Assembly (NCBI GenBank): GCA_028532985.1
Contig: JANCIK010000009.1
Location: 62,001 to 126,000 of the forward strand
Reading direction: 5' to 3'
Length of the DNA: 64,000 nucleotides
From: Stropharia rugosoannulata
Taxonomy: Eukaryota; Basidiomycota; Agaricomycetes; Agaricales; Strophariaceae
The position numbers and the translations under genes are program-made. Below, piece by piece: positions 20,835 to 43,800 of the stretch (its first letter is position 1; the number at the start of each line of letters is the position of its first letter). The notes under the pieces are model-generated. The model was not told where the DNA came from. It did not search any database and saw nothing but the letters and a program-made list of their open reading frames with translations.

Positions 20835-20862
20835 AACTGGTCCCAGGCAGAGGCTTTTGTAC

Positions 20863-21325: not shown

Positions 21326-22844
21326 GTCTATCGAAATAGCCAAGGGAAGGAAGTCGAAAGGCATCAGAGCGATGTTGATATACATCCATGGTCCTTGGGA
21401 TAATATCCGTATTCCCCCCAGAGTAGCTGCGGTTGAAAATATCCATAATGCCACGTTTCGAGTTGATGATTTCGCGCATCAGGCGAGAGAAGGCGCGGTC
21501 GGAACCTTCACCATATGCTATCGGAATGCTGATATCGAGAATACCCATTAGCGAGTAGGCTCTGTCCTCTTCACGAGTCACCTGCCTCCCACATGCCATC
21601 TGCATTCGTCTGGATATTGGGATTTTATTTTGGTATCCATGGTTGAAGTTAAAAATTTCGGATGCCTGTATTCCTGCAGCAGCTGCTACTGATGCCTTAT
21701 CAGAATTCAAGATAGTCCAGTTCTTGTCATATACTGCCATCTGACGCGGCGCCACAAGCTCTTGCAATGTCCATCCCCTGGTAAACCATGAGTCCTGAGA
21801 TATATCATCCTGGGAAGTTGTCTCTGAAAGATAAATGAGGCAGAGACCGGCGTTTCGGTACCATTTGTACATAGACCGAATTGCCTCGTCTAGCTCCGCA
21901 CTGCTCTCCTTATTGATGCAGCAGGTGTCGATCCATCCCAGACGGAAGCCGTGATCCCGTGCAGATGCTTCGCAGAACTTTTTGATCTTTGCATATCCAC
22001 CCAAATTCTGTTGTCTGGTAGGCCAGCCCTGATAGGAAATCTCGCCAGAAGTAGCTTTTGTCCATGTGTGAGAAAGGATCGTGTATCGGGCGTATTTGTA
22101 AATGAGTGCATTTATTTGATTGGTTTCTGAATACTCCTTAGTGTCCCAAAGATATTGGCCAGTAGGATGATGTTTGAGGTGATCTATTAGGGCGGGAGCA
22201 AAATTGGGGATATCGTCATCGATCTCCGCACATATACTTTCAACTAAATATAGGGCGGCTTCTCGGTGGTTGACAAGGCGAATTTGCAATCCATCTGAAT
22301 CAAACGCCAACAGTCGTGTTGGCATCTTGGACACGTCGGTGCAGATCTTCTCCAAAAGAAAGTCTTTAAACACTTGTCGAACTAGAATTTATCAGCCAAC
22401 TATAATAGATTACTTAGAGACACGTACACTCTGCTGGTATAACTCGTGGCCTACTGCTATCCTCCATAATGTTGTGATTTACGCGAATGAGGGACGTTGA
22501 GGGTGAAGTATCTGTGGAATCGGGACTGGATTTGGATGGCGGTGATTCCGTCATACGGCACTCCTCGACAGTCTCTGCAATGAAACCTTTCAGACACCTG
22601 ACAAATTCATTCTCAGGAGACTGTCCAGAGGAAGCACTGCCTATTTCAGCCGCCGCTGACTGTGTACGCGGGGTATCTAGAATCCTATTTCAATTCTATT
22701 TCAACTACATATGGCGCTCAAGAACATACCCGAAGCCAAGCACTCATACACCATGGGCTTCACCAGATTCGCCAGTGCGGCAAGTAGTCCTCGAGCCTTG
22801 GGACTTTCAAGGCCTATTGATTCAGCAGTGTTTGCATTCGACAT

Positions 22845-25299
22845 TGTGTGGTAATGTCCTCGTCGTTGGAAAATGCGATCTGATGTGTATGATTGGGTCC
22901 GGTGAGCAATGCGTGCTGCGGTAGTAAGAAGTGCTTACAGTGAGGACTGTGTCAATTCGTTATGGGGAAAGGAAGGAAGAATTGAAGCAATGGACGTCCG
23001 ACCAGATTGTTCGGGAACGTGTCAAACACGTTTGGCGGTCTATTTAAAGTCTTCCATTGCCCACCGACTTATTTTTATCATGTATATTATTGAACAAACG
23101 GATGAACATCTGTCTACATAAGCCCACATCTTCCATCATTCTCTCTGCCTTAGTACCCAATAGCGTCCGGTAGTCTCCACTAGTGAGTAGATGTCTGAGC
23201 CGTAGTGAATGGTTAGAGTTTGGGACTCTGGGATAGCCCTCATAGCTCGTATGCTAGCCATGAGGCATTTTATTTTTATTTGCTAACTGACATGTCCGAG
23301 ATTATACCGCTCTATTGATACCTTCCTTCGTCCCTTTGCCTGCAATCCAGTCCACGGAGCACTGGGTCGAGGGGGTCGCATAACACCTTTTTGAATCTCT
23401 CCATCTCACTCACGACATACTCTACATTCAGAGCGGGAGCGTTGGGGCCAGACAGCATCGCCATCTATAGTACATTCTGTTTTTGAAGCACTCGGTCATG
23501 CTGCCGGCCCGCCGCCTGCGCAACGAAAAGGAAGTTACACAGCGACATAAGTTCGTTTTGTCGTCACTGCCTCCTACTTACAATTTGTCTACAATACCTC
23601 AGGGACCCCTCGACAACTTACAATTAACTTGCTTATGATTTTGGACCATAGAATCTTGCGATTTTAACGGTTAAGTATCGTCGTATAGGCGAAGCATGGT
23701 ATTGGACCTGCTCAGTGCTCACTAGAAGACAATAAACAAGAACGGGTACAGCTGTGGTGATAGTGGAGAAAGGGAAGAGAAGTGAGTGCTAGGTACGTGT
23801 CTGTGTTGCCGGTCTATTCGCCAGCACACATTTACGGTCTTTGTGGAGCCTGCTTGCATTTTCTTAGCCGCTTCACTGCCGTCTGTATGCTGCATGTCTT
23901 GCTATGTGTCTCTCCGTTTGCATAGCGAGGAATGTGCCCGTCTTTCACCCGCCTCACCGTGTTTATGCTTCCTTTGTTCAACTAGCCGGCCTATGCTACT
24001 CGCGGGATAGTCTGCACGCGGCCTCCCCTCGACGGCCCTCTTTGCCTGGTCGCGCTGTCATGTCCAACGACGTGCGACTCCCCCGCAACGGTATACGACG
24101 TACATTACACATTCAACTTCAGCTCGCCGATTGTGCTTTCATCGTGCGCGCTGTATACCCGTGCATGTTGCTGTCCCTTCATCCTGCAACTGCAACTTGT
24201 CCCCGAGGCAATGTCGAGCCGAGTGTCTGCGGCCCTCTTTCTGGGTTCTACAGGCCCTTTCCGGTGAGACCCTTTCCACTCCCTTCGTCCCCAGCCAGTG
24301 GCCCACCTCCCGCGCCATTTTTTCTTGCTCACCCTTTCCGCGGTGTTTTCCCGTTCTCATGTGCGCGTTGGAGACTATGCTCGTGAGATGGACGAGCAGA
24401 CGGATCACGCGAAGACGCGTTATACAGGCGGAAACGCTCCAAGACCTCGTGAAGGGCCATTGCGACGACTCCATGTATGCACATACCTATACACGGACGC
24501 TGTTAGGCTGCACTCATCCTCAAATATTTGTACAGCCATGTTGGATGTTGTTATACCTTTATTCATGCCTTTCCATCGTCCTGTATACCGTACCCTACCT
24601 ATAGAGAAGAAAATATAGAACTGTAGCGCCGCCCCTCTCAGGTCTTCTCTGTTGCTTTTCCTTCATGATAGGGGATATCTGGGTTACAGAGACGACGTAT
24701 GTCTACAAGATGCCGCCCTCGACCTATTGTGGTATACTTATTCATTGCTATTCGTACAGTATATTACCGTAGACTCGGATAGGACACTGCGTCCTACCTC
24801 ATTCTGAGTTATATTACGGGTTTTATGTGATATACGGCGTATCTTGTCTGGACTGTTTTGTTTCTTAGGGATTTATCCGGGAGCGCAGTAACGACGCACT
24901 GGTTACAACGAATATCGACAACCTTGTAGACCCGGATAGAGTACCGGGACCGTCCGTAATATATCCACCCCGCCCACCACTGTAATGTTTCCCGGGTTTT
25001 CAAACCATATCACATGATGCAGCACATAATAACAAAGCATGGCGCTTCCGAGCCTGGTAGAATTCGTCAACATATGTAGTGGTGAAGTCTCACCACATTA
25101 TATCAGTGTAGATTCTGTAGAGTAATGTTCTTGGTTAATAGATCAATAATTTCATTGTTTAATCCTACTACAGATACTCGAGAGCAAATGCGTCGTCCTA
25201 ATATTAGGCAGAATCCCACCACAAAATTAGTATACGCAACTGATTAATTCCTACTACCACAGCGACTCGCGCAGCACATGCGCGCGCCCTCCGCGGCTC
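22845..25299 (+). repeat. HET 5'-flank plus truncated non-coding repeat
   Basis: 22,845-23,460 is shared with the upstream flanks of HET copies 3 and 4, including the words GGGAACGTGTCAAACRCGTTTGG and GGCTTATTTTTATCATG (the first quoted with one ambiguity code). From about 23,470 the head of the long non-coding repeat appears and continues to about 24,620. 24,650-25,300 is unlike the repeat and leads into array A, so one end of the KDZ element probably lies here. No coding exon is supported. Confidence 0.6.
23194..23260 (+). other. tRNA-like relic upstream of HET copy 2
   Basis: The segment CGTAGTGAATGGTTAGAG resembles the A-box and D-arm of a tRNA. About 30 bp later GGACTCTGGGAT resembles an anticodon arm, and ATAGCTCGTATGC a decayed B-box. 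Related but shorter copies lie at 47,257-47,308 (with a clearer GGTTCGATTAC) and 53,621-53,671. A full cloverleaf could not be folded by eye, so I treat it as a decayed tRNA or tRNA-derived SINE piece copied with the HET segment. Confidence 0.3.
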
Positions 25300-26345
25300 C
25301 CACAAAGGCCTTGGTGGAATTACCCCACACACAAACCGCGAGCGCACAGGGGGATCTCCCCATCCATGCCGCGTGCTCTCCCGCGGCTGTGGTGGAATAT
25401 TTCCACACGCAGCAGATGAACGTACAGGGGAATTCACCCGTGAGCGCTCCGCTCTACGGTTGTAGTGAAAATACTCCACACATAAGTAATGCGCGCACAT
25501 GGAGATCCCCCCACATGCGCCGTGCCCTGAATCTGTGGTGGAATAATTCCACACACACAACATGTGCGCGCACATGGGGATTCCCCCACATGCGCCGCAC
25601 CCTGCAGCTGTGGTGGAATAATTCCACACACAAGCAATGTGCGCACTGCAGGGTGCCACACGCACTTTCCCCCAGGATGTGGTGGAATAATTCCACACAC
25701 ACAACATGCTCGCGCACATGGGAATCCCCCCATATGCGCCGCGCCCTGCAGCTGTGGTGGAATAATTCCACACACAAGCAATGTGCGCACAGGCGGGTTC
25801 CGCCACATGCGCCGCGCCCTGCATCTGTGGTGGAATAATTCCACACACACAACATGCTCGCGCACATGGGAATCCCCCCATATGCGCCGCGCCCTGCAGC
25901 TGTGGTGGAATAATTCCACACACAAGCAATGTGCGCACAGGCGGGTCCCCCCACATGCGTCGCGCTCTGCAGTTGTGGTGGAATAATTCCACACACACAA
26001 CATGCGCGCGCACATGGGGATTCCCCCACATGCACCGCGCTCTGCAGTTGTGGTGGAATAATTCCACACACACAACATGCTCGCGCACATGGGGATCCCC
26101 CCATATGCGCCGCGCCCTGCATCTGTGGTGGAATAATTCCACACACAAGCAATGTGCGCACAGGCGGGTCCCCCCACATGCGCCGCGCTCTGCAGTTGTG
26201 GTGGAATAATTCCACACACAAGCCCTGTGCGCACTGCAGGGTGCCACACGCACTTTCCCCCAGGATGTGGTGGAATAATCCCACACACATACAAGTCGTG
26301 CGCACACAGGAATCTCGTAATACCCGCCTGCCCTAAATGCATGTG
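25300..26345. repeat. Array A: palindrome-centred tandem repeat, about 14 units
   Basis: Units of about 73 bp each contain TGTGGTGGAATAATTCCACA, whose core GTGGAAT-A-ATTCCAC is a perfect inverted repeat. Spacers alternate between two types, giving a dimer period of about 146 bp. The outermost (left) units are degenerate (TGGTGGAATTACCCCACA, then a TATTTCC variant), as is usual at array edges. Long open frames on both strands here are by-products of the repeat. The array is oriented as the inverse of array C. Confidence 0.92.
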
Positions 26346-26397
26346 GTGACCTTCCAGCAACTTACCACACAACCGGTACTTGATACCAACAGCACAA

Positions 26398-26720
26398 ATG
26401 CCTGACAGTGATATCGACCCGGCTGACAGCGACATGGAGACATTACAAAGCGACCTGGAGATGGACAGTGACGGTGCAGTGAATTTTGATCAGTGAGCAA
26501 GATTTTTGTTCATGTTGATTTCATAGAGTGCTCGGTGGTGGACATTCTCGTCAAATCTGACTCCTCGGATTCCGAATGTGAGTATCTCTTCCTTTCTTTG
26601 CTCTATTTTATTTCACTCATTCTTGATGAAGATGATTCGGATTGCAGTGCTCTATTGCCTTGCAATAATAGATTCTGTGTAGACTCGTGCAATAGTTCGT
26701 CTATCCATATGAAATTGTGA
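26398..26720 (+). CDS. Possible small acidic protein next to array A
   Basis: An ATG at 26398, about 50 bp after array A, opens a strongly acidic frame (MPDSDIDPADSDMETLQSDL, then EMDSDGA). Further acidic codons (SDSSDSE, DSDC) follow at about 26,555-26,650 and would join by one or two short introns. A GTGAGT at about 26,577 is a good donor. I could not settle one exon structure: the best path uses GTGAAT at 26478 and an acceptor near 26528. It may instead be the 5' part of the next gene. Confidence 0.3.
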
Positions 26721-26767
26721 ATAGCTTACAAACCTATTTATGCACAGTATGCACTGATATTGTGTGT

Positions 26768-27367
26768 ATGAGATACAGATGTGTTGCTGCGCGTTCCCAA
26801 CCTCAAGTGAAAGTAAAGTTTTGGTTACCTGTAAGTTTCATATAATACATACCAATACTAAGCATGTAATAATATCAAAGGTGTCAGTATGTAACTGATG
26901 CCCCATTGCCTATCAGCAGTCCCATTATGCCAAACGGACGTCACAATCTCTCCCTCAATTACCGTCTTCACCATCTGGGTGAATTCCAGACATCAATTTA
27001 TATGGTCTACCATCCTCGAACGCGTCCCCACTGGCTCCCAGCTGACTTCAAACACAGGGACTTTGTAGATCCAAGTGGCATTCTTCTGTATAGGTCAGTC
27101 TATAGGGTAGATGACGAGTGTGGCCGCCTCGCACGTGAAGTCCGTCGACTTCATGCAGCACTAGCTGCTGCAGAGCCTTCCAAACCCCCGCCGCCAGTCC
27201 CAAAACGGTATCGATTACCAAGCGACCTGAAAAAAATCAAGAAGAAAAGTTACAGCTCGGACACGCAGTCTACTGAATACTCGTCAACAGACGAGTCTGA
27301 TGATGGATTTCGCAATTGCTGTACTTATGGTAGAAACTCGCAAACAGGCGAGATTACGTGTTGGTAA
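26768..27367 (+). CDS. KDZ-element protein of about 180 residues, unknown function
   Basis: Exons 26768-26830 and 26888-27367 join in phase through a 57-nt GTAAGT...GTCAG intron. The N-terminus is basic (MRYRCVAARSQPQVKVKFW). The middle holds YMVYHPRTRPHWLPADFKHR and a predicted helix (DDECGRLAREVRRLHAALAA) that looks like a short coiled coil. The C-terminal part is Pro-rich, then Lys-rich (SDLKKIKKK), then Ser/Thr/Asp/Glu-rich, and ends in NCCTYGRNSQTGEITCW. No domain is recognised. It lies in the left gene group of the element, and an upstream exon from the acidic frame at 26398 is possible. Confidence 0.55.
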
Positions 27368-27384
27368 TGGTAGAATTATACCAT
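27367..27384. promoter_or_regulatory. Isolated copy of the array palindrome upstream of the 850-residue gene
   Basis: ATGGTAGAATTATACCAT is an 18-bp inverted repeat with perfect 6-bp arms and the same GGTAGAATTAT core as array C units. It lies 157 bp upstream of the ATG at 27541 and overlaps the stop codon of the previous gene. I infer a binding site for the same factor that would bind the arrays. Confidence 0.45.
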
Positions 27385-27540
27385 ATTACTTTGTTACGGA
27401 ATATAACAATCGCGCTGGTTTTTTTGCTCGTCCCATTCTAAGTTTTTGACGTTTGATCAAAAAACTCCTGAGCAATATATAATCTGTCTGGTGAAAAATT
27501 CAATGTTGCATACCCTGCTTTCTTCTGCCATTTTCTCTCA

Positions 27541-30306
27541 ATGCCCCCAAAACGATCGTTTGCAAGCAGCCAGTGTTAGTCATTAGGTCTCTATACTCAC
27601 CTATAAGATAAAAACTTACTGTTATACCCATTACAGTGCTGGATCTTGATTCCGTCATTGCAGCTCAGGCTGCCGCACAATTGAAGCTAGATGCTTACAT
27701 CGATCAGCGTTCAAAGGGAAAGCGCAAAGTACTTAAGCCTACAGGTGTGTTTGTTTACTATTCCATTCACAACTCTAATATATATTCTGTACAGTAAAGG
27801 AAACTAATCTACGGAACGCATTGACTGAGGCAACTGAGCAGGTCGAGTCACTTCGTGCTAGCAACCTCGGCTTGCTCACCAATAAAAAACCTCAACTGTC
27901 TGTTACCCCGAGCTCCCCTCTGACAGAGCTTGCGGATGAGGGGCCCCCTTTTTCTATGGACGCTCAGGAGAGTTCATTCCTCGGATCGCACACCGGGAAT
28001 GATGATGGCAACGCTGCTGATGCGAGGGAATGGGACGGCGCCTGTCAAAAAAGTATGCCTGGTCTGAGTTATTCTGATGACTCCGAAGAGATGACATCAG
28101 TGAGTTTACCACATGACTTACAGTCAGCATCGATCTAATTCAGTTAATCTTAGCTTCTCAATCTGTCAATGCCGGAGAAAGAGGAGAAGCGTCGTGAGCT
28201 TCAGGTTCAGCTGAAGGAAATGCAGGGAACAATGCTCCAAGAACACAGCGAGCCAGGCAGTTACACTGTCTTGTCAGCTAAATATGCTAAGGTCAACCAC
28301 ATGATCAACATTTTGGAATCTCCGATCCCATTGACCTTCGCGGAAATGATGAACATGGCTGTATCCGACGAGCTCCCACAGCTCCCACACCTGAACGACG
28401 CATCCGCCCCGTTTGTCTACTACAATTTTGCGCAAGATCAAATTATAGGCAACAATATTTTTGGCGATCCTTTGTCGTTACTAGATAACCCTCCTGTAAC
28501 CCCTGAGCAACGTGCATCAACCTCTTTCTCTACCCCTAGGCCGAAAAATATAACTCCACAGTTCGACGTGTTCCCTGCTCAATCAGTGGCTCAAAATGTC
28601 TTGCCAGACGTACCATTCCCTTCCACCCCGACCCCTAAGATGCATAGCCGCTCTGATGCACCGCCTGTGCAATCCACGGCTGACAATCACTCGGCGCGGA
28701 ACAGGACGCAATCACCGGCATATCAAGCTCCTGACGTCACCACTGATGTCAGCATGGACGACAAAGCCAAATTTGTTGTTATTGATACCAAGACGGCTGA
28801 TAAGGATGTCCTGGCCATTCCTCCTAATGAAGACAAACCCGCGGCGCTCGGTGGGATTGGAGAATTGGCTGCTCCCGCCAATGACGACAAACCTGCAGTG
28901 CGTGACGGGGTTGAAGCATCGGACAACATCAATCAAAAACTTGCGGATATCAAGGCGCGCATCATGGCTCGTACTAAGTCCAGGGAGAAAGAAATTCGTC
29001 AGCTTATGAACATTCTCCTTGCAAACTCTGGGGTCACGGAAAGCGCTGAGACGACAAAGGCTAAGGACATCATCAACAGCAAAGTGAAGGCCCATGACGA
29101 AGCACTTGAAGCTCTCCGAGAGTTACGCAAGCAATTGAAGCAGGAACACAGTTCGCGCACTGTCAAGGTTGCTCCAAAAGTACAGGTGTCGAAGAAGCAG
29201 CCAAATGTTGGCTTGGCACAACTTGTACTCATTCTGACGAATCAACATGTCAAAGTAGACTTCAGTAACAATAACTTGGTTATGGCAATCGACGAATATC
29301 TCCCTGGCGGTCCATTCCAGACTAATGAAGAGCGACTAGTTGCGATTAAACATGAGTCTGAGTTGACTCTTACCCGCCAGGAAGCCTTTGAGTTAGAACT
29401 GCACTCGGATAACGATGACGACAACAGCGACTCGGATGATGACTCCAGGAAAAGAAGGAAACTGCGAGCTGATGTCTACACCGAGAGCGAGCCACTCGAG
29501 TACCTCTCAATGTCGACTGAGTCAAAGGAGATATATGAGGGTACGCCTATCATCTAATTTCGCTTTATAATACTTACTGTTCTACAGCAAAGGTCCTAGA
29601 GGCAGTCAACAAATTTCTTCTTGATCCCTCTTTAGCCATTGAATTTAGCATGCGGCGTACTTTACGCACCGTCCAGAACTTTCTCCCCCAGGTATCAATG
29701 ATCTCCCGCGAGCTGGCCCTTCATATACACACCAACAAGAACGGCAACTTGCAATGCCGTTATCACGAGAAGAGCAAGACCAGACGCTACTGGGATGGCC
29801 GTGCCGTTCTGCCACACTTTTTGTATGGAGTCTCTTACCCCCCACAACTAGGGCCGAAGAAGCTGGGCAGCGATAACCACACACGCCCCCCGAACACGTT
29901 CATGGATTGCGGCTGTCCCTTTGAAGATGTATTGCTCGACTTCTATTTTTGGAAAACGTGGAAGGCGTCTTCGCGCAATCCGCTCTACACAGGCCGGCAA
30001 GAGGGTCTTGGATCGACTCACATGGACCCGCGAGTCAGAACATTCGTCGTACAAGCGTTCACAAATCTTACGGGACTCACCGTGGACAATATCTACTCGA
30101 GCGACAATGCCATGAGGACGGACACTAATAGCCGTGAGTTGCAATGGAAGCAAGCCTGCAGTCTGATCTGTAGGATGAATATGGCGAACAGCTTCAATGG
30201 ACCTTGGTTCCAGATGAGACAGTTTTCCGTAAAGGATGAGTATGACATGGAAAACAATGTCAAACGCCCTCGTCGTCGCTCAATCGGACCTGGATGCTCC
30301 TTTTAA
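27541..30306 (+). CDS. Large KDZ-element protein (850 residues), unknown function
   Basis: Exons 27541-27574, 27637-27744, 27795-28099, 28154-29540 and 29588-30306 join in frame over four introns of 47-62 nt (GTTAGT, GTGTGT, GTGAGT, GTACGC donors) into 850 residues. The N-terminus is basic (MPPKRSFASSQ) and is followed by a helical segment (NALTEATEQVESLRASN). The centre is low-complexity, with near-repeats around PPNEDKPAA and PANDDKPAV, then a charged coiled-coil-like region (ARTKSREKEIRQLMNIL) and an acidic patch rich in Asp and Ser near residue 570-580. The last 240 residues look globular, with CGCPFEDVLLDFYFWKTWKA, and end in a basic NVKRPRRRS. No family is recognised, and no 2-oxoglutarate dioxygenase (TET/JBP) HxD signature was seen. 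Context suggests a transposition accessory or DNA-binding partner. Confidence 0.75.
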
Positions 30307-30447
30307 GTAGTCTCGCATCAGTGGTCACATAGTTTCTGTATTTGTTGTAGAATTTCTGAATGCATGTGCACCCTTTTGCCCTGTTCACTAAAGTGTTTGT
30401 TATATAAAATTGTGTTCTTTGATATGTAGCGCCCTATGTAGTACGGC
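30307..30447. terminator. Probable 3' flank of the 850-residue gene
   Basis: The 140 bp between the stop codon and array B is AT-rich and contains no exon. Polyadenylation most likely takes place here. No specific signal is certain. Confidence 0.25.
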
Positions 30448-31478
30448 GTACGGTGGTAGAATTATTCTACACACATGCCGCACGTGCTTGTGGATAGATC
30501 AAGCGCTCCCCAAGCGGCTGTGGTAGAAATACTCTACACACCAGCCGCGCGCATGCAGGGGAATCACGCATGCAGGGGAATCACTCACAGGCATTCCCCA
30601 AGCAGCTACGTGTGGGGGAATTGCCCCACACATGTTCCCCAAGCGGCTGTGGTAGAAATATTCCACACACCAGCTGCATGCATGCAGGGGAATCACTCAC
30701 ACATGCTCCCCAAGCGGCTGTGGTAGAAATACTCTACACAACAGCCGCACGCATGCAGGGGAATCGCATGTGTGGGGGAATTGCCCCACACGTGTTCCCC
30801 AAGTAGCTGTGGTAGAAATATTCCATACACGAGCCGCATGCGTGCGGGGGAATCGCACATACGGAGGAATCACTCACACGCACTCCCCAAGTGACTGTGG
30901 TAGAAATACTCTACAGACCAGCCGCACGCGTGCAGGGGAATCGTGTGTGCGGGGGAATCACTCACAGGCGTTCCCCAAGCGGTGGTGGTAGAAATATTCT
31001 ACACACCAGCCGCACGCGTGCGGGGGAATCACTCACACGCGCTCCCCAAGCGGTGGTGGTAAAAATACTCTATGCACCGGCTGCGCACATGCAAGGGAAT
31101 CACCCTGCACGCGCTCCCCAAGCAGCGGTGGTAGAAATATTCTACACACCAGCCGCGCACATGCAGGGGAATCGTGTGTGCGGGGGAATCACTCACAGGC
31201 GTTCCCCAAGCGGCGGTGGTAGAAATATTCTACACACCAGCTGCACGCATGCAGGGGAATCGCTCACACGCGCTCCCCAAGCAGCTGTGGTAGAAATATT
31301 CTACACACCAGCCGCACGCGTGCGGGGGAATCACTCACACGCGCTCCCCAAGCGGTGGTGGTAAAAATACTCTACGCACCGGCTGCGCACATGCAAGGGA
31401 ATCACCCCGCACGCGCTCCCCAAGCAGCGGTGGTAGAAATACTCTACACACCAGCCGCGCGTGTGCAGGGGAATTGGC
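30448..31478. repeat. Array B: internal palindrome-centred repeat, about 13 units
   Basis: Units of about 72-90 bp contain GTGGTAGAAATATTCTACAC or a close variant, followed by a GC-rich spacer (CCAGCCGCACGCGTGC, then GGGGAATC and GCTCCCCAAGCGG). Orientation is the same as array A and opposite to array C. The arms use A-T at the third position (GTAGAA/TTCTAC) where array A uses G-C. Some units carry an extra insertion with its own GTGGGGGAATTGCCCCAC palindrome (near 30,610 and 30,773). Confidence 0.92.
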
Positions 31479-31574
31479 CAAATGAATGAGGGATCCCCGT
31501 ATGCGTGATTACCTTCTGTTTGCCTTTCTTCGTCTTGTACTTTCACAAACTAGTACTTCAAGCTCTTTGTTACA

Positions 31575-32514
31575 ATGGACAATGAATTGACAAAAGATCA
31601 GCGATACTACGAAAGGTTAGATACTCACTGCTCTCCTATGCTATTGCCTCACTAATGGTACCACTCAGAAACAAGGAGGTCATCAAGCAGAAAAATGCAG
31701 AAAGGAATAGGCTAAACCGTGTCAAGAAAAGGTAAGCAGTACAAGCAACTATCATGTCTTCTGTTCACCTGTTGCTGCTTAGGGAGAGTAACAGTTCAAT
31801 CAAAGCACTACAGCAGTCCCAATTGGATGCACCACCGAAGTACAGGTACAGTTCACACTTACAAGTCTGTTAGTTTGTACTGCTGATATACTTACAATAC
31901 TTACCAGGAATGCCAGTGTTCAAGTAGGCGGAGAAAGGCTATGCCCAGACTCCTGTTATTGCAGCTACTTACCTGGCCTGCATATTCCCATCGAGGAACT
32001 CATTCCATTGATGAACGGATATCATAAACCGAAGTCCCCCTTGACAAGACTTCCCGAAGAATTTGGGGATGTATCTTCTGCATACAAAGAGTACGATGTC
32101 TTCATCAACGCACGTCGCCTTGTTCAGGAATGGTGCTCCGCGTGGGGTGGTGTTAGAAACTGGCACGATGCCTTGGATGTTCTATTTCTCGAGGCCATGA
32201 GGAAGAATCATGACGCTTGCCGGGACACCTTACAGAAGATTTACAAACACTCGGAAGAAGGCAAGGACATTCTTAGCAGGATCGACGCAATGCAAGGACG
32301 TCTTCCTTCAGATCCGCTGGCCGTCTCCCTTTTATGGAGGTATTATACTGAAATGACGATTACTTTGACACGCGGGCTAACGATACTTGAATGCCGTTTG
32401 GAACTGGTTCATCGCGAGATGCTTGGTTTAGGTGACTTAGGTTACAGGAAATTCTTCAAACTTCTCTCAGACTGCAAGAATGCGCCTCAGAGAACTCCAA
32501 TGAGGAATTTCTAG
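31575..32514 (+). CDS. KDZ-element protein of 257 residues, basic N-terminus
   Basis: Exons 31575-31615, 31669-31731, 31783-31845 and 31908-32514 all join as AG|gt...ag|R, in phase, with introns of 51-62 nt. The N-terminus (NKEVIKQKNAERNRLNRVKK) is highly basic and resembles a DNA-binding basic helix. The next part has a small cysteine group (CPDSCYC). The C-terminal two thirds are helical and charged (EEGKDILSRIDAMQGRL), perhaps a coiled coil. The gene starts about 95 bp after array B and is transcribed away from it. No family is recognised; I suspect a transposon accessory or regulator with a bZIP-like layout, but no leucine zipper register is clear. Confidence 0.75.
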
Positions 32515-33215
32515 GTATATCTAGTACATACAGTACTTGACAACTGTACCCACATTTTGTTTGTACACTTCTATGCTACTAAATAAACAACTTGTTCGCT
32601 AAATAAATGTATCATTGAGAGTGAGAGAGCATGAGATAGAGTAAGAGAACATGAGGTGGATTGCTTTACGTCGCATGTGTGCAGACATAATGCATGTAAA
32701 TCCAATGTAAATCAGTCGCAAACCATTTGCGACGCTGTCTCCACATCCTTCCCCACCTCGCATTTAGTGTATATAACAAATATTTATGACATTTTACCCA
32801 TAAGAGATCTGGGAACATCTTAAATACTGGAAAGAACACAGAGTTTATTGGGGAAATGAGGCATACCATAGGACTGGGAGTTTTGATGAGGTCAACAACA
32901 TAGTTTCATACTGTATATTGACCGTCCGAGTATCCAAAACCATGCCACCTTTTAAATTGCCGTATCCCCCCATTTGACAGTCGTTTTACATAGGTCCAAA
33001 TACTCTCAGTGTATATCTGTAATTTTTATTTGCATATTCAGACTGTACATGAAGCAAAACGGCCCACAATATGTTCAAAAATGTGATTTACGCTTGTTTG
33101 CGACGTTTGCGAGACGCAATATTCATGTACAGGGAAGTTGTTATACTTAATTCTGTTAGACACACGTCTCAATTACACATATTCATTGAACTTGACATGG
33201 AGTATATTGAAAGAG
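32515..33215. other. Convergent intergenic region inside the KDZ element
   Basis: This 700-bp AT-rich interval separates the rightward 257-residue gene from the leftward 460-residue gene, so both transcripts end here. A GAGAGTGAGAGAGCATGAG-type purine run occurs at 32,617-32,655. No exon is supported. Confidence 0.5.
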
Positions 33216-35023
33216 CTATGTAAGGCTATTATCTACAGGAGGTCCAGGAACACTGTGTTCTACTAAGGAAGATGTACTATGTGAAGGCCCTGCCGTAGTA
33301 GACACATTTATCCTACCAAATAGCTCTTGATATTTAGTAAGGAGAGCGTCCTTATTCAGTCCCTGTACCCTAATCTGCTCCAGTTCCTTCTCCAGGTTTG
33401 CCTTTTGTGTCTGTACCTCTTGAAGTTTGCGCTGTACCTTGAGAGTGTCCCGGCGACGAGCATCCATCAGCTCAGATAGCACTGAACAGAAGTACGACCC
33501 AAACTCAGATATTTCGTCTGATTCATTCCTAATTCTGGGTGATGTATAGTGCAGCGGTGGCACTCGTGATGTCGGGTTCTGGGCTCCAAAAAATAGCCAG
33601 CACCCAGTCTGAACAGAAAGATCTTCGCACTGTAATGGACCCTATTATTAGAAACAACCCTGGATATATAATAAACTCACCCGAACTATCAAGCTATTCA
33701 CTGTCTCAGCAAAGTACCGCTGACATTTATCACTATCCTCAATCTCTCCGGGAAGCTGGTGGCCACGATGTAAAGCTGTCAATGGTCATTATAGATGGTA
33801 AAATTATAAACAATTCAACTTTAGCTAATTTGTACGGACCATGTTTGCTTGGTCCACGATATAAGCCATCGACATGACCGTAGAGAGGATTGGAGGCAGT
33901 TGCACGGATACGCTCTTTCTTTGAGCTTGATTTATTGGTCTCTCCTCGAGCTGGCGTATTGAATGGATCGTGGACAGACACATTATCTCCGCGCATTGGG
34001 CTACTACGGGTGAGAAAGGTAAGTTATTGATCATGGGTAATATCACAGGTGCACCCAACCTGTGTCCTGTCATCTCAGCAGTTTTCGAGGGGTCATCTGT
34101 AGCAGAGAGGGAAGATGCAGAAAACTCAAGCACCCCGTGTGGTACCATTGCTGGAAACTGCTGTGAAGAGCTTTCATGATCGAGAGAGCCATTCTCAATG
34201 TTTGAGCTGGTAGCCGGGTCTGGTGTATGCGGGCCAATGGTGGCCAGTTGCTGAGAGCGCATTTGTAGATCCTAAAGACGTATAAATACATTGTGACAAG
34301 ACAGAGAATACAATGGGATGTTCATACCTGTATAATTTGCTGTTCAATGAGGAAGGCTGCTCCTGATTTTGTATGGGCACATTCGTTGCGTATGGGCCGC
34401 CCAGGGCATATGCTGCATCGTGCGGGCGCCCTTGAAGCCGGACAGCTATTGTCAGAGGAAGTATTGGTAACCCGAGCTCCTGCAAAAATCCCCAGAGTGG
34501 TAATTGAAGAGGGTACACCAGATTCTGACGTTGGCACGAGTGCGGGTACTTCAACATGTACTCCGTTTTGAGTAAATGTAGGCTAATAGCAGGTAAGCAT
34601 ACCGATCATTCAGTACACACTCATTTTCTCGCAAGGACATAGAGACATACCTGAAGAAACTCAAGCACCGTGTTGGACACTAACGGGTGCTGTACACTTG
34701 AGGATGCCCCTCTCGGCGCCTGGATGATAGTATACCAGTGAGTCAGTCAATGTAACACAGCCTGGACATATAGAGTGACAGACCTGAAGCTGCTGCTGTA
34801 GGTAATGTCTTCCGGCTTTTGAATGAACGCACTGGCTCTTTAGAGGCCTATTCTCGCACTTGGTACATCGACTGGGCTGTCGACTAGCCACCTGTACATA
34901 AATCAGAGGTGAGACTTCTTGAATTCACTCCTTCTTAAATTCACTCCATAGGCGTACCTTGGCTTTAATGGGCGATGCTCCTGCGGCGCGGGTTGACCTT
35001 CTTGGGCTTTCAAGGTCGGTCAT
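33216..35023 (-). CDS. KDZ-element protein (460 residues) with duplicated C-x2-C-x2-RP-x4-C-x-H motif
   Basis: Eight minus-strand exons join in phase: 34958-35023, 34784-34891, 34651-34719, 34328-34582, 34060-34271, 33820-34003, 33681-33755 and 33216-33629. Two exons encode the same motif, CTKCENRPLKSQCVH (from residue 31) and CSICPGRPIRNECAH (from residue 137), each followed by a short helix with Gln-Gln. This looks like a duplicated zinc-binding module, perhaps DNA-binding. The centre is Ser/Pro-rich. The C-terminal part has DKCQRYFAETVNSLIVR and a clear coiled coil (RKLQEVQTQKANLEKELEQI). The donor GTTGAA of intron 6 and GTTGGG of intron 5 are unusual, so those joins are less sure. No known family is recognised. 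Confidence 0.65.
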
Positions 35024-35136
35024 CTCAAGATATTGACTCTGGCAAGAAAGTAGGATGAAATCAAGATGCTCATGAAACAATTAAAACCCGAACTGAGTTG
35101 ACATCGAGAAACACAAATGTCAACACATATTCCTTG

Positions 35137-35200
35137 TGGGATATTTCTACCATGAGATCAGATGATGTACGAAGTATGGAATGTTTCTACCATGAGATCA
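35137..35200. promoter_or_regulatory. Pair of palindrome-like sites upstream of the 460-residue gene
   Basis: Two 40-bp-spaced copies of TTTCTACCATGAGATCA (ending at 35160 and 35200), each preceded by a TGGRAT half, give GGAATGTTTCTACC-type inverted sites. They lie 115-180 bp upstream of the gene start at 35023 and resemble the GTAGAA/TTCTAC core of arrays B and C. Confidence 0.4.
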
Positions 35201-35287
35201 ATAGCCACAGTTTCTCGTGTAGAGGGAGATGTACAAAACATCACGTATTATAGTCCATATAAAATATTACATTTGCAACATCCTATC

Positions 35288-38200
35288 CTAAGATGTAAGG
35301 GCTCGGATTCTTTGACGATTCCATACAGATAGGAATGTCTTGGTGTATATAATGGCCCGCTCCTGTGACATGTACGCTACTGGTTTTCGAATACGCAGTA
35401 TGCCACCATTTCCACATTCTGCAGCACTTGAGTTTATATACAGTAAATGTGGGTTAGTTGCACAATATGTACTGAGGAATGCGGCGTGACCACACTTTGT
35501 ATGGCCACCGGTGTGGAATACATCGATAGCAAAGAGGGTCTTGGAAAAGAACTCTGGTTCCCGTGTCATGCAGTAAGGCTGGAGTGCACACGCAAAGTCG
35601 TACACAATGATCTTGGGGGCGGTAACCCAACGTGTATACACAGCTGAGAAAACATCGTTCCTACCTTCGGCAGACGGAATACAGTGGAACCCATAACAAA
35701 TGCTATGAGTGCACCAGATGCACATTATTCCGCCAGTAAGTCGCGATTGACCGTACTTGGCATAGAACTTGTTGCAGCCTTGTCCTCGACTTTCCTTCTT
35801 GGCCGAATCCGTCATATTTTCATAAGGCAGGTTTGGATATTTAGGGCGATGACGAACTTTTGGCATTCCGTAGTATGAGCCTGTCTGTCAACTATAATTA
35901 GCTGTGTGAATACTAGACAATCATGTCAACCACTTACATCTTGCCACCGCTCACTTGAAGCACTTAAGCTTGGATCAATGTCCAATGAAGGCAGGGGATA
36001 TTTTTTGAGTTGAAGAAGCACAGTGCTTGCTCTTACATAGAGCCACAGACACAATTTCAGGGTATCTTGTCTAACCCCACCTTGCTTCAGCTCTAAGGAA
36101 GCAACGCGATACAAGGCTGGGATAGGCGTAAGATGTGATACAAGTTGGGCAAAGCTGTTACTCAAGGTAGGCGCAACAGCAGCCGCGGCGCAAAAATAGC
36201 CCAGCTCATCTAGAGCGGAGCCATTAGCCATTTGCAGACATGTTTCTTCCGCCGCGACCTAGCCACAACATTTAGTAAATATAAATTAATAGCATTAGTA
36301 TGAAGTATTACCTGAAGAAATAGCTTCTTGTACACCGCTGGAGTCCGTACACTTGTCACAAACGCGGTGGGACCGTAGCAACGGTTGAAGACTTGAGAGA
36401 GAGAAGGGTCAATTTTATCTAGCTCCATGATAATGGTAGGAATAAGCTTCAGTCGGTCGGTCATAGCTTTGGCGTTCCTGCGTTGAGCTTTCCTTCGCCT
36501 CTCCAATACAGATTCGGCTGTAGGGTGATCCCCATCATCAGATGAATCTTCGTCGAGATCTGATAAGTCTTTGAGATTATTAAATGGTGCCGTATCTGAC
36601 ATATCACCGCTCTCCAGCATTGATAACAGTAAATCCGGTCCGTTCAAGACGTTGCGGATGGCGTGGCGTAGCTTTCCATTGGCAATAAACTGCAGTCCTG
36701 ACATCGGCTTCACCTTGTCTTTACACGGTGAATCGGGATGAATAGTCGTCGGTGGGCATAATGTGGATCGCAAGTTTCGACGGCTGAAAGCGAGAGTAAC
36801 GCCGTCGACGATGATGGCCTCTGGATTAGGCCCACAGACAGGACACAACATGTCCTGGTTCATTTGCACAAGTTGGATGTATGAGAACCAAGCCGCACGG
36901 AATAGTCGGTCACTGATAAAAGGTATATTTGATTGCCTTGCTTCGTATCTCCTTGATATGACCGTTACCCACGCAATAAATGGGGTTTCAGATGTAGAGA
37001 ACTGGTTGGTGTAATCATCGAGCAGCTCGTGTGTGAGTAATGCTTGATTGTTGAAATTGAATAGGCCGAGAGATTGACAATCAGGTCCAATATAGCGACG
37101 CCTACATGCCCCACATTTCTGTACTTCGATAGTGGTCCTAACAGCGCCAGTAAGTCCGTATATTGTACATGGATTTATTGATGACATAGCAAAGGGGTTG
37201 TAGCGCTCTCGGGGGGACTGACAGCAGCATGTTGAGCTCTCGTCTAGTCGAATCGGCTCAGAGGTCATTGGAATTTGAAAGACGGGGGGCTGAGTAGCAG
37301 TAGGATCTGTAGATATCCTTGCCCATACAGGGGGCGGTATAGCCATGTACGACACTGCTTCTGTGCTTGATCTCACCCGTTGCGCGGAAATGCAGGCTGA
37401 ATAACAGATTATTGAGTACATGAGCATGATTCATGTTGTGACAATATTCAAAACTCGTACCAGGCATATACTCCAAATCCCCAGACCCTGTGTCCTCATC
37501 GAGGGCATCAACATTGGCGTGAATATGCTGCTGGAGTGAGTGCCGTGCTTGGACAATATGATAACAGCTGGTTGCTCCTGAATCTTTGGTACATTTCCAT
37601 GTGCCACCGCCCTTTTCATCTCCATGATGCTTAACGATGGCTCGGTGCTTAACTGTTGCGGAGAACTCATATTCAGGTGCAGGAACAGAGAAAACAGAGT
37701 CATAGAGCCCATCCTTAGCAGTTTCATCCCTTGCACACAAAAAGGTACGCCTATCATCATCTGTAGATTGTGTTGTAGATCTGTACACACGTTAAAAGGA
37801 AATAAACTCACCTGGAGCACTCTGAAACGGCGGAAAGTGAACTGATTGAAACTCTGAAAGGTATGCAATGTGGAAGCATCTGGAGTTTCGTTTACCTTGT
37901 GGGCATTGGCAGCCGATTCTTAATTCATTGGCATGAGGAATACTCTGAATGTGAACCCATCTCGACTAGACTGGATGTCAACTCATTTGAATATACAAAC
38001 AAGTACATGTGGACGTACCAAAATTGCCTCGTTTCTCTCTATATTCCATTCATTTGCCACAAAGATATCCTCGGTCAGTCGAAGGAATGAACATTGGTCG
38101 GATAAAATGGCCTCCACAAATGACATATATCTATCCTCTTCATTTAGCATACTATCTTCACCGGTCAAAACATCAAGAGGAGCAGCCAAGTTCGGTTGAT

Positions 38201-38501
38201 TCTCTTGATTGACATCATTGAACAGCAATATGTCTGAGCTACCTGAAGCAAAATATGGGGTGCTGTAAGAGCGGGAAGTGACAGCCTGGAGAGGTGTAGA
38301 TGGCAAGGGCTCCGAAGACTGGGCTTGCAACGAAGAGCGGTCTTGACCAACATGTGTTTGTACTAGGTGTCCACTTGCTCTCCTGTGACGGCGCTGCTTC
38401 CGGTGTGGTGTGGTGATATCAATTGAGGATGCCTCATATACTATGCGCTGCTTTACTGCCTTAGGACGTTCATATATGACGCGTACATTGTGAGAAGCCA
38501 T
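35288..38501 (-). CDS. KDZ transposase (972 residues)
   Basis: Six minus-strand exons, 38019-38501, 37812-37944, 37461-37760, 36312-37396, 35938-36258 and 35288-35884, join in phase to 972 residues. The N-terminus is basic and Ser-rich. Cysteine clusters follow: CQCPQGKRNSRCFH near residue 170, WKCTKDSGATSCYH near 265-275, and VQKCGACRRRYIGPDC near 237-251 of exon 4's numbering. They fit the CxC-type clusters known beside KDZ transposases (subtype not assigned). The catalytic part has CPVCGPNPEAIIVDGVTLAF (candidate first Asp, about residue 342), then GFHCIPSAEGRNDVFSAVYT, IIVYDFACAL (Asp, about 869) and SSAAECGNGG (Glu, about 929). These are the hallmark KDZ blocks. The enzyme would cut and join the element ends in the nucleus. 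Confidence 0.9.
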
Positions 38502-38599
38502 TGTGTGCGTTAGGCAAGGAGCATATACGCAGTAAATGTTCAAGGAACAAATTGTTTATTGTGCAATTGAACTATTCACCAATATCGTTATATGGCAGG

Positions 38600-38631
38600 A
38601 TTCTACCACATATGAAGTTGTGTGGAATTAC
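38600..38631. promoter_or_regulatory. Inverted half-sites of the array motif upstream of the transposase
   Basis: ATTCTACCACA and TGTGTGGAAT lie about 10 bp apart in inverted orientation, 100-130 bp upstream of the transposase ATG at 38501. They are the two arms of the array units, turned outwards. I infer a regulatory site that could allow the transposase or a partner to control its own gene. Confidence 0.4.
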
Positions 38632-38669
38632 ACAGTACTTGAAACATATTTTCACACCATATTCTTCAC

Positions 38670-39377
38670 TTAAATACATCTGATAAGAGCGCAATACAAT
38701 TCGCCACTTATGACACTACTATGGACCACATACAAACTACCATCAGCTACTAGTGGAGTCACAACCATTGTTTTGCGGGAGTCTACTGATCTATAAATAA
38801 TAATTGAGTAGAGTGCCATATTAATAATAGATCAGTAAATAGACAAACCGATGTCAACGTCGAGAAGTACCTGCACTCAGGGAAGCGCAATGCATTTTGC
38901 GACATTGTAAAGAGAAACTCAACGTCTTCATTGGGTCCCATAAGCTCGAAGGTCTGCGAGGAAGTGTTTCGACCGTGATAGCGGGTAAGAATGACTTGCT
39001 CTGATTGCCATAGATGCACGAGAAGGTCATATGCCATGATATTCGCGGCAACTATTCGGACATCCAATCCAAGGTACTTCTGGAATTCATATCTTACAGA
39101 TCATTGTAATGTACAACCTAGAAGTAAAAAGACTCACAATGTACCGAGCTATTTGTGCTATGACAGATAGACCCTCCATATCAAAGTCATTGGTGTACTC
39201 GTTTGTTGGTCCGGACAGAAAGTGCATATCAAACCGGATTAATTCGTTCTCGTAGTATCGCAGGAGCTTGTTTTGCTCACTGCACGACATTGTGATGAAT
39301 GCAGGATAGTCATCCGAGCTGTCGGAGTACTCGGGAGGGGTGGAGGCACGGTGGGGCAAAGGACGAGTATAGGGCAT
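38670..39377 (-). CDS. KDZ-element protein of 189 residues, unknown function
   Basis: Exons 39138-39377, 38871-39079 and 38670-38790 join in phase to 189 residues. The introns are 58 and 80 nt, with GTGAGT and GTACTT donors. The N-terminus is polar (PPEYSDSSDDYPAFITM), the rest mixed alpha/beta in look, with IAANIMAY-like and QVILTRYHGRN segments. No domain is recognised. It is the first gene inward from array C, reads away from the array, and lies directly upstream of the transposase on the same strand, so a role in transposition or its control is plausible. Confidence 0.65.
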
Positions 39378-39514
39378 GACTGAGGCATGAAGCGTGCGGA
39401 TATTGAGGGAAATAATAATGTATGTTGCTTTTTATCTACACCATTAAATACAGAACTAAAATATCACATGGTGTACATATTTGTTTTATAGAGCATAACA
39501 CTGTGCGTGCGCAG

Positions 39515-40860
39515 CTTGTGTGGAATTATTCCACCACAGCTGATAGCAAGTATGAGTGGTGGGACCCACCTGCGCGCGCACGATGCGGTGTAGAATTATT
39601 CTACCACAGCCCATGGGGCAGCGCACTGGTGGGGACAACTGGTGTGCGCGCACACTGTGTGTAGAATTATTCTACTACAGCCCATGGGGAGTGCACTGGC
39701 AGGGACGGCCGGTGCGCACGCACACTGTGTGTAGAATTATTCTACCACAGTCCATGGGGCAGCGCGCTAGTGGGGACGGCCCGTGCGTGCACACACTGTG
39801 CATAGAATATTTCTACCACAGCCCATGTGGGAGTGTACTGGCGGAGACGGCCGGTGCACGTGCACACTGTCTGTAGAATTATTATACTACAGCTCATGGG
39901 GGAGTGCACTGGTGGGGACCGCCCGTGTGCGTGCATATGTGTGTAGAATTATTCTACCACAGCCTATGGGAGAGTGCGCTGGTGGGACCCATCTGCGCGC
40001 ACACACACTGTGTGTAGAATTATTCTACCACAGCCCATGGGAGAGCACGCTGGTGGGGACGGCCGGTGTGCACACATATGTGTGTGGAATTATTCTACCA
40101 CAACTCATGGGAGAGTGCGCTGGTGGGACCCATCTGCGCGCACACACACTGTGTGTAGAATTATTCTACCACAGCCCATGGGAGAGTGCACTGGTGGGAC
40201 CCATCTGCGCGCACACACACTGTGTGTAGAATTATTCTACCACAGTTCATGAGGCAGCGCGCTGGTGGGGACGGCTGGTGTGCGCACATATGTGTGTGGA
40301 ATTATTCTACCACAACTCATGGGAGAGTGCGCTGGTGGGACCCATCTGCGCGCACACACACTGTGTGTAGAATTATTCTACCACAGCCCATGGGAGAGTG
40401 CACTGGTGGGACCCATCTGCGCGCACACACACTGTGTGTAGAATTATTCTACCACAGTTCATGAGGCAGCGCGCTGGTGGGGACGGCTGGTGTGCGCACA
40501 TATGTGTGTGGAATTATTCTACCACAACTCATGGGAGAGTGCGCTGGTGGGACCCATCTGTGCACGCACACACTATGTGTAGAATTATTCTACCACAGCC
40601 CATGGGAGAGTGCACTGGTGGGACCCATCTGCGCGCACACACACTGTGTGTAGAATTATTCTACCACAGTTCATGAGGCAGCGCGCTGGTGGGGACGGCC
40701 GGTGTGCGCGCATACTGTGTGTAGAATTATTCTACCACTCCCCATGGGGGAGTGCGTTGGTGGGGACCGCCCGTGCGCGCCGACACTTTCTGTAGAATAA
40801 TTCTACCAAAGCCCATGGGGGGAGTGCGCTGGTGGGGACCGCCGTGTGTCGAGCTATTCC
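39515..40860. repeat. Array C: palindrome-centred repeat, about 19 units, with 212-bp higher order
   Basis: Units of about 70 bp contain TGTGTAGAATTATTCTACCA, followed by CAGCCCATGGG and a GC-rich spacer. From about 40,080 to 40,715 three units form a 212-bp higher-order repeat present three times in near-identical form, a sign of recent array expansion. Reverse-complemented, the units match array A in order (CTGTGGTRGAATAATTC, then CACA, then GTGCGCGCA, then GGGTCCC), so A and C form an inverted pair. The outer (right) edge decays to single degenerate units near 40,850 and 40,925. Confidence 0.92.
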
Positions 40861-43800
40861 ATCACAGCTCAATCTCAGCTGGTTGCGGACGTTTGGGATT
40901 TCCCCGTGTCAGCATTTCTTGTGAGTGTAATATTTTCACCGCAGCTATGATGCTAGGAGTATATAGAGCAATACAAGATAATTAATTTGTGTCATAACGG
41001 TTTGAAATTCGTGTATATTTGATACTATCACTACTACATAGCTATGCACAATGAGGCTTATGTAAGAGCAGGCATCAAACCGGGTCATGTTTCACCGATA
41101 CGCCTGGTTGATAAGTATATGTCAGACCAGACACGTTATCCGGGTTTCACTCCTTGTCTATAACCCGGTTACAATGAGACCAGACGCATCGCACGGATTC
41201 AGATCTATTTTTGGAGTGGGCGGGCGATGCCGGCCGGGAACAGTACGCTACACAGCCACGTCTGTTGTTTTCGTCGTCGCCCCCTACCAGGCGACCTACC
41301 CCTCAGAGACTTATGTCTATCGTGATCGCGTTTTCGAACATGGCCGGCTGGGGAACTTGAGTTTGGACCTGTGCACGACACGAAGACGAGGACAGGAATT
41401 ATAATCTCAATAAAGTAAAAAAGAACGGGCACGACAGCGCTGGGGAAGCGGGAGCGGAGAGTGACTGGGACGCATGGACTGAGCTTGCAGCCTCTCAGTT
41501 GCTGGTGATTGGTATGTTTCTTTGCCTATGCATTAGCCCGAATGGTTTACGGTTCTTACTGGAGTACCCTATCCAATTTCTAGGGCCTGTCGCGTTCTCA
41601 TCCCTCCCTCGTCGTGCTTTGCGTCTCCGGGCTCATGGTACTCATGAGATATTCTGTCAGCTCTGCCCCGCACTTGTCTTGCCTCCCCCTTGACGGCCCT
41701 CTCTGCACGGTGCGCCAGCTCATGTGCGTCGCGTTCAACTTCTGTGGTTCGGCCTTCCTCGCAAAGTACCTCCCACGCATGCCAGCTCACGCGCCTCCCC
41801 CGTAACATTCGGTGTGCATTACGCATCCCTCTTCATCCCGCCTTTCATGCGCATATATACCTCTATCTTGCGCGCACTTTACATATATCCACTTGTGTCC
41901 CTCAGTCAACCAGCCCCTCGCAAGCTGCATTCTGCCCTCCCCCTATGCGCTACATTCGTCGCTCCTGCAATCTTGCCCTGGTCTCACCCCCGCCCCCGCC
42001 TCCGGTCCGCAATATATAGTCAGCGCAGTAGCTCGCGCCGCCATCGCGAGACTCGGGCGTGCCTCCTTGGTGCACAGTTCCGTGCATTCACGTTTCGTCC
42101 ATTCGATCTGTTGCATTGCGTTGCATCGGTTGGGTCGCGTTCTATCCGCTCCATCCCATCCCTCGCATTGCATCCCGTCCCCCGCACTGCATCACATCGC
42201 ATAGCTTTGCAATATTTGTCGATGTACTGTCTCCGTCTCTCCTTGCAACCTGCGCAGCGATGGCTCCACGCAAACGATGTCCACTGGCGTGCGGTCCCGA
42301 GGGCTAGCATGCGCGCACTGGTACGAGGACAGGAGGGGAGGCGGGGGATAGATGGAGAGCAAGCGTGAGGTCAGGTGGCCGGTGAGCAGGGATGCGGTAG
42401 GACATGGTTCAGTGCCGCGGAGGTCGGTGGGTGGGGAAGAAGGGTCGGTGTATGGATGGGTCGGCGGATGGTGATGCATGATGGGTCGTTTGTTGGGTGG
42501 GGTGGTGGATGGGAACAATGGTGGTGCTTCGGGAGGCGATGGCGGGGAAGCAGACGTCCTGCTCGTCCGCACTCCATGCGTCGGCGTCGTGCTCACCGAC
42601 ACGGTCGTACGACATTGCCGTCCCGTGGTTCACCTTGGCTAGCACGCGAGCATGTATATGCGCCCCATCTCTACTCTCGAGCTTGTCCGGTCAGGCCCCC
42701 TCCGCCGTCGTGACCGTCCAGCGACTTCCTGTGTCGTCCTGTCCTCGGTGTGTTTCTTGAAGACGTCTGACTGTATGCGCATTCGCACGCTCTGGAGAGA
42801 CCCGTGTTGTCAGACCTCATCTGCTCGTATGCGCATTCGTGCTTTCTCTCTTGAGCCCTTTCCCGTCCCACCTCATACAGCTTGTTGATACTTGCAGCCT
42901 GTCCCGTTCTGTAGGTGCATCTCCGCTGCGTAGATGCGTCCAGCCAAGCGTGCGACAGGCACCGCGGGCCCCGCTCTCCTCGATACCTCCTCTAGCTAGA
43001 CCGTCTCCATCCCCTTCGTACCCTAGCCACTCGCCTATGTCCTGCGCTGTCCTGTCCTGCTCCCCTGCTCCCCAGCGTGTTCCGTGCAAATATATGTGTA
43101 CACCCTCGTCCAGACTACATCTCACGAGCCCCGCCTCACGCGGTTCTCTGACGCCCTGTCCCGCGTTGCCCTCCACTTCCCTTCCCGCCAACTAAACGGC
43201 TGCAGACCTCATGGGGACATGCATCGGCCTGTCCTCTGCATCGCGCACACGGAGCGTATATATCATATCTCGTCTCTAATCTGCTCCGTCCCGCCCCTGT
43301 CTATGGGGCCGCCCCTCTGGAATATTCATCCCATTAACCTGCAAGCCGCCTCCAGTGCTGTCCTCGCTTGGTCCCCACTACACGCATGCGCCCTCACTCC
43401 GACCGCATTCATCGCGCGCAGTCGATGTTCTTCCAACCGCTCCTCTTCACTGCTTTGTCCCTGCCATCTCATTCCATCCTTTCATTTCACTGGTCAATGC
43501 CCCCGCTCGTCGCCTGCGGACTCATTTGCTTCGCATCCCCTGTGCTTGGTTCTGAAGTGCGCTCTTTGCTTGAAGTGCCTCTCGCGATATCCGTTGCTCC
43601 CCTGGTGGCTGTTTACAGGCCAGCTTATCGGTGCGTGCATCTCATGCAGGCTATATCATGTTCTGACTGTATCGTGCGCAGGATATATTGTGCGCCGGCA
43701 TTATTGATTGCGCCCAGGTCTCAATGCATCCTCTCGCCCATACACTAATGCATCCTAGTACGCCCGTCTGTGTCTGTGTATATCTAGCCCTGCCATGTAT

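Follow-up and report, generated by a model that had tools for sequence, protein, structure and literature searches.

The stretch of DNA analysed here, called the window, comprises 64,000 nucleotides of Stropharia rugosoannulata (C9:62001-126000, C9 being contig JANCIK010000009.1 of assembly GCA_028532985.1, which has 47,968,167 bases in 20 contigs). It contains six genes, one of which encodes a transposase of the KDZ group, and three tandem repeat arrays. All lie within a complete element of 16,258 bp (window 24909-41166) that has inverted ends and is flanked by a target-site duplication (Table 1). The gene layout is convergent: g1, g2 and g3 are read rightward in the left half, g4, the transposase gene and g6 leftward in the right half.

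Table 1. Features of the element in the window (gene models and motifs are predicted)
Feature	Position	Strand	Description
Target-site duplication, left	24901..24908	.	GGTTACAA; same 8-mer at 41167-41174; sister copies have other perfect 8-mers there
Left inverted end	24909..24948	+	40 bp; 24/40 identical with right end
Subterminal array A	25310..26330 (approx.)	+	units of about 69-78 bp, GTGG...CCAC dyad; GTGGTG/GTGGAA type, without GTGGTA
g1	26748..27367	+	conserved exons 26748-26830 and 26888-27367; last exon 159 residues, start uncertain; coding conservation in three lineages
g2	27541..30306	+	850 residues, five predicted exons, conserved C-terminal domain
Internal array B	30500..31516 (approx.)	+	between g2 and g3; spacing mostly 71/72 or 88/89 bp
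g3	31575..32514	+	about 249 residues, without Pfam match
g4	33216..35023	-	about 433 residues; two C-x2-C-x8-C-x-H motifs, then conserved C-terminal region
Transposase gene	35288..38501	-	985 residues, six predicted exons; SWIM-like CxCx8CxH, CxC4, split DDE-like KDZ core
g6	38783..39377	-	about 178 residues; found only within the five-copy family
Subterminal array C	39514..40846	-	spacing 70-72 bp, 71-bp units; inverted relative to A
Right inverted end	41127..41166	-	40 bp; aligned to left end
Target-site duplication, right	41167..41174	.	GGTTACAA, identical to 24901..24908

Copies and ends of the element

Copies were identified by searching the genome with the interval 25300..40860 of the window, and the collinear matches were extracted and aligned. 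Five full-length copies were found, the window copy and four others, with the six genes collinear in each. The copy C5:123880-140185 (16,306 bp) is 94.8-98.3% identical to the window copy in long blocks and 90% identical in one array-spanning block. The copies C10:397225-412189 (14,965 bp) and C6:946694-962467 (15,774 bp) share 98.7-98.9% identity in two long blocks and 89.6% in an array block, and the copy C5:371768-394344 (22,577 bp) includes a 6.2-kb long terminal repeat (LTR) retrotransposon. The five copies form three lineages (window with C5:123.9k; C10 with C6; C5:371.8k). What can be aligned from one lineage to the next is the coding blocks and the left end, with 65-78% identity.

Directly outside its ends, each copy has a perfect 8-bp duplication, and all five differ (GGTTACAA, TAGCTTCC, ACAGACCC, CGCAACAG, GCAATCAT; ACAGACCC can be counted as one base longer). 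The outermost 40 bp at both ends are imperfect inverted repeats with 23-26 of 40 positions identical across the five copies. With up to 3 mismatches allowed, the genome contains five left ends, one in each full copy and none elsewhere, and seven right ends, in the five copies and at two further places. The latter (C1:194871-194901 and C13:2524219-2524249, with 1 and 3 mismatches) have no matching left end and are possibly truncated or non-autonomous derivatives.

The first-pass annotation had proposed one mobile unit, about 16 kb long and bounded by the arrays. The unit was borne out, since every one of the five copies has a single pair of ends and a single duplication, whereas the arrays proved not to be its bounds: the inverted ends lie outside them, by about 400 bp on the left and about 320 bp on the right. 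The locus might also be a patchwork of adjacent or nested elements, as the three arrays, the two convergent gene groups, the repeat-rich surroundings and the differing gene order in diverged families could indicate. For the five-copy family the patchwork is refuted, since all six genes of every copy lie within one end pair and one 8-bp duplication and the left ends are confined to the full copies; as an account of the locus it is extremely improbable. The check suggested earlier, whether the genes recur together, was run on this family: in all five copies they do so inside one pair of ends with one 8-bp duplication. The arrays were covered genome-wide by a whole-element DNA search that skips common words. 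The arrangement of the gene groups was constant within the five-copy family, but diverged families have these genes in different order and orientation.

Some copies are altered. The C5:123.9k copy has a 1.1-kb insert inside the transposase gene. Its identity to window 36914-40410 is 98.3%, compared with 95-96% in the other long blocks, and gene conversion may account for this. The C6 copy is partly broken: its matches to g1, g4 and the transposase gene are split, and its g1 model has a frame break. The matched stretch of g3 contains a stop in C10 and C6, and single stops occur in the g4 and core stretches of C10; these may be gene ends or introns.

The transposase and its accessory genes

The gene models were based on cross-copy conservation and GT-AG splicing. 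Stop-to-stop open reading frames of the window were compared by tblastn with the C10 and C5:371.8k copies, and the exons were chained. The 850 residues given for g2 in the first-pass annotation held, and the other sizes changed: 159 residues for the last exon of g1 (180 before), 249 for g3 (257), 985 for the transposase (972), 433 for g4 (460) and 178 for g6 (189). For the substitution counts, columns of low local identity were removed first. Between the lineages the synonymous divergence (dS) is saturated (above 2.4 or beyond correction) and the non-synonymous divergence (dN) is 0.18-0.38 in every gene; all six genes have therefore been kept by purifying selection. Close pairs showed few changes, with dN/dS of 0.14-0.54 between the window and C5:123.9k copies and of 0.14-0.74, where defined, between the C10 and C6 copies, the g1 model of C6 being disturbed by its frame break.

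In the transposase, the CxC4 cysteine cluster (PF18717) was recognised with 160 bits (cut-off 26.9). The KDZ domain (PF18758) scored 16.9-20.4 bits, below its cut-off of 26.6, and covered profile positions 75-172 only; a precomputed KDZ assignment exists for 6 of the 120 relatives listed. The residues D461, D817 and E877 were invariant in 56 of 56 aligned transposases, and the predicted model of a 58% identical relative, with its fold matches, has a DDE-like RNase H-like fold. The transposase thus looks like a DDE enzyme in the predicted model, and its domain content places it in the CxC4 branch of KDZ. A profile of the 56 transposases found no sequence relative among solved structures (best E value 0.62). 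The likeness to the transposase of ISCth4 (PDB 6xg8), a bacterial insertion sequence of the IS256 family, is one of fold alone, at 8% identity. Among the relatives listed, the four closest are from Pholiota, a genus of the same family as Stropharia, and the database label on such relatives is 'HMG domain-containing'.

Inverted ends and 8-bp target duplications are described for Zisupton and Dileera (PMC12730594), and both are present here. Kyakuja has a 7-bp duplication and CA..TG ends without inverted repeats (PMC12730594); membership was rejected on the 8-bp duplication, the different ends and their inversion. The KDZ identity proposed in the first-pass annotation is upheld by the CxC4 domain, the DDE-like core and the 8-bp duplications. 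Taken together, we read the locus as a single, complete cut-and-paste DNA transposon that carries several genes and belongs to the CxC4 branch of KDZ elements, with a probability of about three in four.

The element's size and gene number would also suit a virus-like giant element of the Polinton/Maverick type or a Starship. This is hardly credible, as no polymerase, capsid, protease or tyrosine recombinase was matched above cut-off in the reading frames and models scanned, the transposase is of the CxC4/KDZ type and the duplications are 8 bp long. The captain of a Starship is a tyrosine recombinase (DUF3435). Starship membership was rejected, with no Pfam match to such a recombinase at E <= 1 in the ten longer open reading frames and four models scanned.

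The conserved exons and models were then searched against the genome, matches were clustered, and second pieces of one place were merged. This reduced 28 core matches to 26 (one a 74-residue fragment) and 28 g4 matches to 26; since only the best candidates were scored, these counts are lower bounds. At least 24 of the 26 cores have g4 within 12 kb. For g2 the figures are 14 within 12 kb, 23 within 16 kb and 24 within 22 kb; g3 was found within 12 kb of 16 cores, a g1-like gene within 16 kb of 16, and g6 near 5. In the reverse count a core lies within 22 kb of g4 in 25/26 cases, of g2 in 24/26, of g3 in 17/17 and of the g1-like gene in 19/21. Besides the window type, three gene arrangements recur (7, 7 and 3 clusters). 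The cores beside which g2 and g4 persist are mostly 58-75% identical to that of the window. Window g1 and its diverged g1-like counterpart are judged homologous from a comparison of profiles built on few sequences (82% probability, E value 1e-5). This accessory core, kept by relatives elsewhere in the genome, suggests that a protein team and not a single enzyme moves the element.

The Pfam KDZ model marks 88 loci in the genome. Two of them, both cores of the kind counted above, have a g2, g3 or g4 match within 12 kb, and at two others the nearest match is at 12.4 and 14.4 kb. At 86 of the 88 loci none of the three was detectable within 12 kb, and the accessory set therefore belongs, as far as detectable, to one branch of KDZ elements.

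A diverged family is represented by a 21,399-bp element at C11:2796715-2818113, in which g2, g3, g4 and the transposase, CxC4 part included, were all matched. Its core is about 63% identical to that of the window, and it carries g1-like genes. A near-identical copy on C4, of which the ends only were read, loses homology at exactly the same two points; the target duplications are TCTTGTAA and ACAGATTT. The inverted repeat of the C11 element (86 columns, 71% identity) begins about 26 bp inside the ends, and in the outermost 40 bp 11 of 40 positions match. One additional gene is present, which also occurs at 12 other places including the C4 copy.

Two neighbouring elements from different families of this multi-gene kind lie at C5:123.9-156k. 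Contig C6 has a core without accessory genes (686.6k) and a g1-g2-g4 group without a core (870-874k), the pattern that a rearrangement would leave on splitting a single element; a similar isolated core is present on C10 (C10:1689.8k; C10:1719-1731k).

The two C-x2-C-x8-C-x-H motifs of g4 are preserved in the three aligned lineages and by inspection could bind zinc. A g4 profile search in which 8000 candidates were scored gave three proteins, one from Coprinopsis cinerea (6e-36), one from Amanita brunnescens (2e-26) and a weak third (4e-4). One such motif is found in the Amanita relative and also in that of Coprinopsis, there with a cysteine in the last place. Residues 560-850 of g2 matched 0 of 1112 candidates at E <= 0.001, in a search limited to proteins 0.55-1.75 times as long as the query. 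The Rfam scan of 24800-41300 reached no gathering score, and the phage collection searched with window 31500-35400 gave no match.

It could be that the transposase alone suffices, that g1-g4 and g6 are cargo or serve anti-silencing, the kind of role ascribed to TET/JBP genes in other fungal transposons, and that the arrays act as promoters, enhancers or chromatin elements. Cryptococcus KDZ elements of about 9-11 kb move, and the available part of the source names the transposase only (PMC12810828); in other fungi, some KDZ elements carry TET/JBP genes (PMC12730594); one array is internal, and array A lacks the half-site GTGGTA. This is rather unlikely, as transposon cargo tends to be swapped between families, whereas g2 and g4 persist beside the diverged cores described above and are undetected at the 86 other KDZ loci, and as CxC4 was the one Pfam match above cut-off in the reading frames and models scanned and six accessory exons had no PADLOC match (E <= 0.01). 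On balance we favour transposition machinery over cargo, with accessory proteins that would be needed for movement or regulate it.

Arrays and a proposed mechanism

The tandem arrays A, B and C noted in the first-pass annotation are real, and so are their relations in the window copy, where C matches A in opposite orientation (E value 3.7e-110) and B matches it in the same one (2.5e-42). Inverted identical arrays are not a general feature, as they hold only in the lineage of the window and C5:123880-140185. The C10, C6 and C5:371.8k copies have three arrays in the same places with weak or no mutual matches (best E value 4.7e-7). In 5/5 copies the positions are constant: left subterminal, between g2 and g3, and right subterminal. 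In the C11 element the tandem-repeat program found a left and an internal array and no right one. In 12 comparisons on both strands, no array matched the one at the corresponding place of a different lineage, although the genes match, and array sequence by these comparisons turns over fast.

The half-site GTGGTA/TACCAC, picked after inspection, occurs 26-52 times per element, where shuffled sequences average 7-12; in both flanks its frequency is that expected by chance. As a mark of every array it was rejected, being present in 13/18; it is absent from array A and its sister's and from the internal arrays of C10, C6 and C11. Array A carries GTGGTGGAAT..ATTCCAC in its place. In 7 of the 13 arrays tested, exact 6-bp dyads were more numerous than in any of 50 shuffles. 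Palindromic arrays are thus a real and repeated feature of the close family; in the diverged family they are weak.

In CACTA elements the protein TNPA binds subterminal repeats, which vary between families (PMC2613891). By analogy we propose that one or more element proteins bind the array dyads, which is about as likely as not. The binder would most likely be g4, the first candidate with its paired CxxC...CxH motifs, and/or the transposase through its SWIM-like N-terminal motif. The bound protein would unite both ends of the 15-21-kb element and place the transposase onto the short inverted ends, and the transposase would excise the element and insert it at sites cut with a stagger of 8 bp. 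Through the internal array, the same protein would also regulate genes of the element. Extended to the branch, CxC4-KDZ elements would be a lineage of giant eukaryotic transposons with an obligate multi-protein transposition machine, in which g2, g4 and usually g1 and g3 read fast-evolving, co-diverging dyad arrays, of a complexity comparable to Tn7 or CACTA and of separate origin; we hold this at even odds.

Most eukaryotic cut-and-paste elements are known with one or two proteins. If the proposal is true, KDZ elements offer a testable multi-component transposition machine, with several proteins conserved beside one transposase type over deep divergence, and a case in which DNA-binding proteins encoded by an element co-evolve with the arrays of sites that they bind. 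It would also give testable roles to proteins listed as hypothetical or, for the transposase, under the HMG label.

Comparison with known elements and genomic surroundings

KDZ elements, including mobile and TET/JBP-carrying ones, are already known; new here are, as we found no prior account, the accessory set and the array architecture. The searchable literature yielded no account of the g1-g4 set or of triple arrays; an earlier description is possible in Repbase or in the founding KDZ and Zisupton papers, reportedly those of Iyer and colleagues (2014) and Boehne and colleagues (2012), respectively. The element resembles fungal KDZ elements of the CxC4 branch in its CxC4 domain, DDE-like core, inverted ends and 8-bp duplications, the last as reported for Zisupton and Dileera (PMC12730594) and for KDZ1 of Cryptococcus (PMC12810828). 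Mobile KDZ elements of Cryptococcus measure about 9-11 kb and have 4-8-bp duplications (PMC12810828), whereas the elements described here measure 15-21 kb and have several conserved accessory genes and three arrays. No TET/JBP match was found here in the reading frames scanned.

The anatomy is similar to that of CACTA/En-Spm elements, which are large and have palindrome-forming subterminal repeats that vary between families. The 20.5-kb soybean element Tgmt* has such repeats within 159 and 732 bp of its ends (PMC2613891). In En/Spm, the element-encoded TNPA is a DNA-binding partner beside the transposase. CACTA/En-Spm elements differ in transposase superfamily, 3-bp duplication, CACTA ends and repeats near the ends; membership was rejected, as the ends here are not CACTA and the duplication is 8 bp, not 2-3 bp.

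Three genes with a HET (heterokaryon incompatibility) domain flank the element on the minus strand (window 21324-22388, 44924-46462 and 51286-52830) with 79-84% DNA identity over 2-2.7 kb, and the C5:371.8k copy likewise adjoins HET-related sequence. Window 15136-21325 is an LTR retrotransposon whose LTRs measure about 463 bp and share 98.5% identity, with GTCTA at both sides; a 99.2% identical copy of it lies within the C5:371.8k element. Duplicated stretches, 89-97% identical, stand on either side of the element at window 10404-11610 and 60585-61752.

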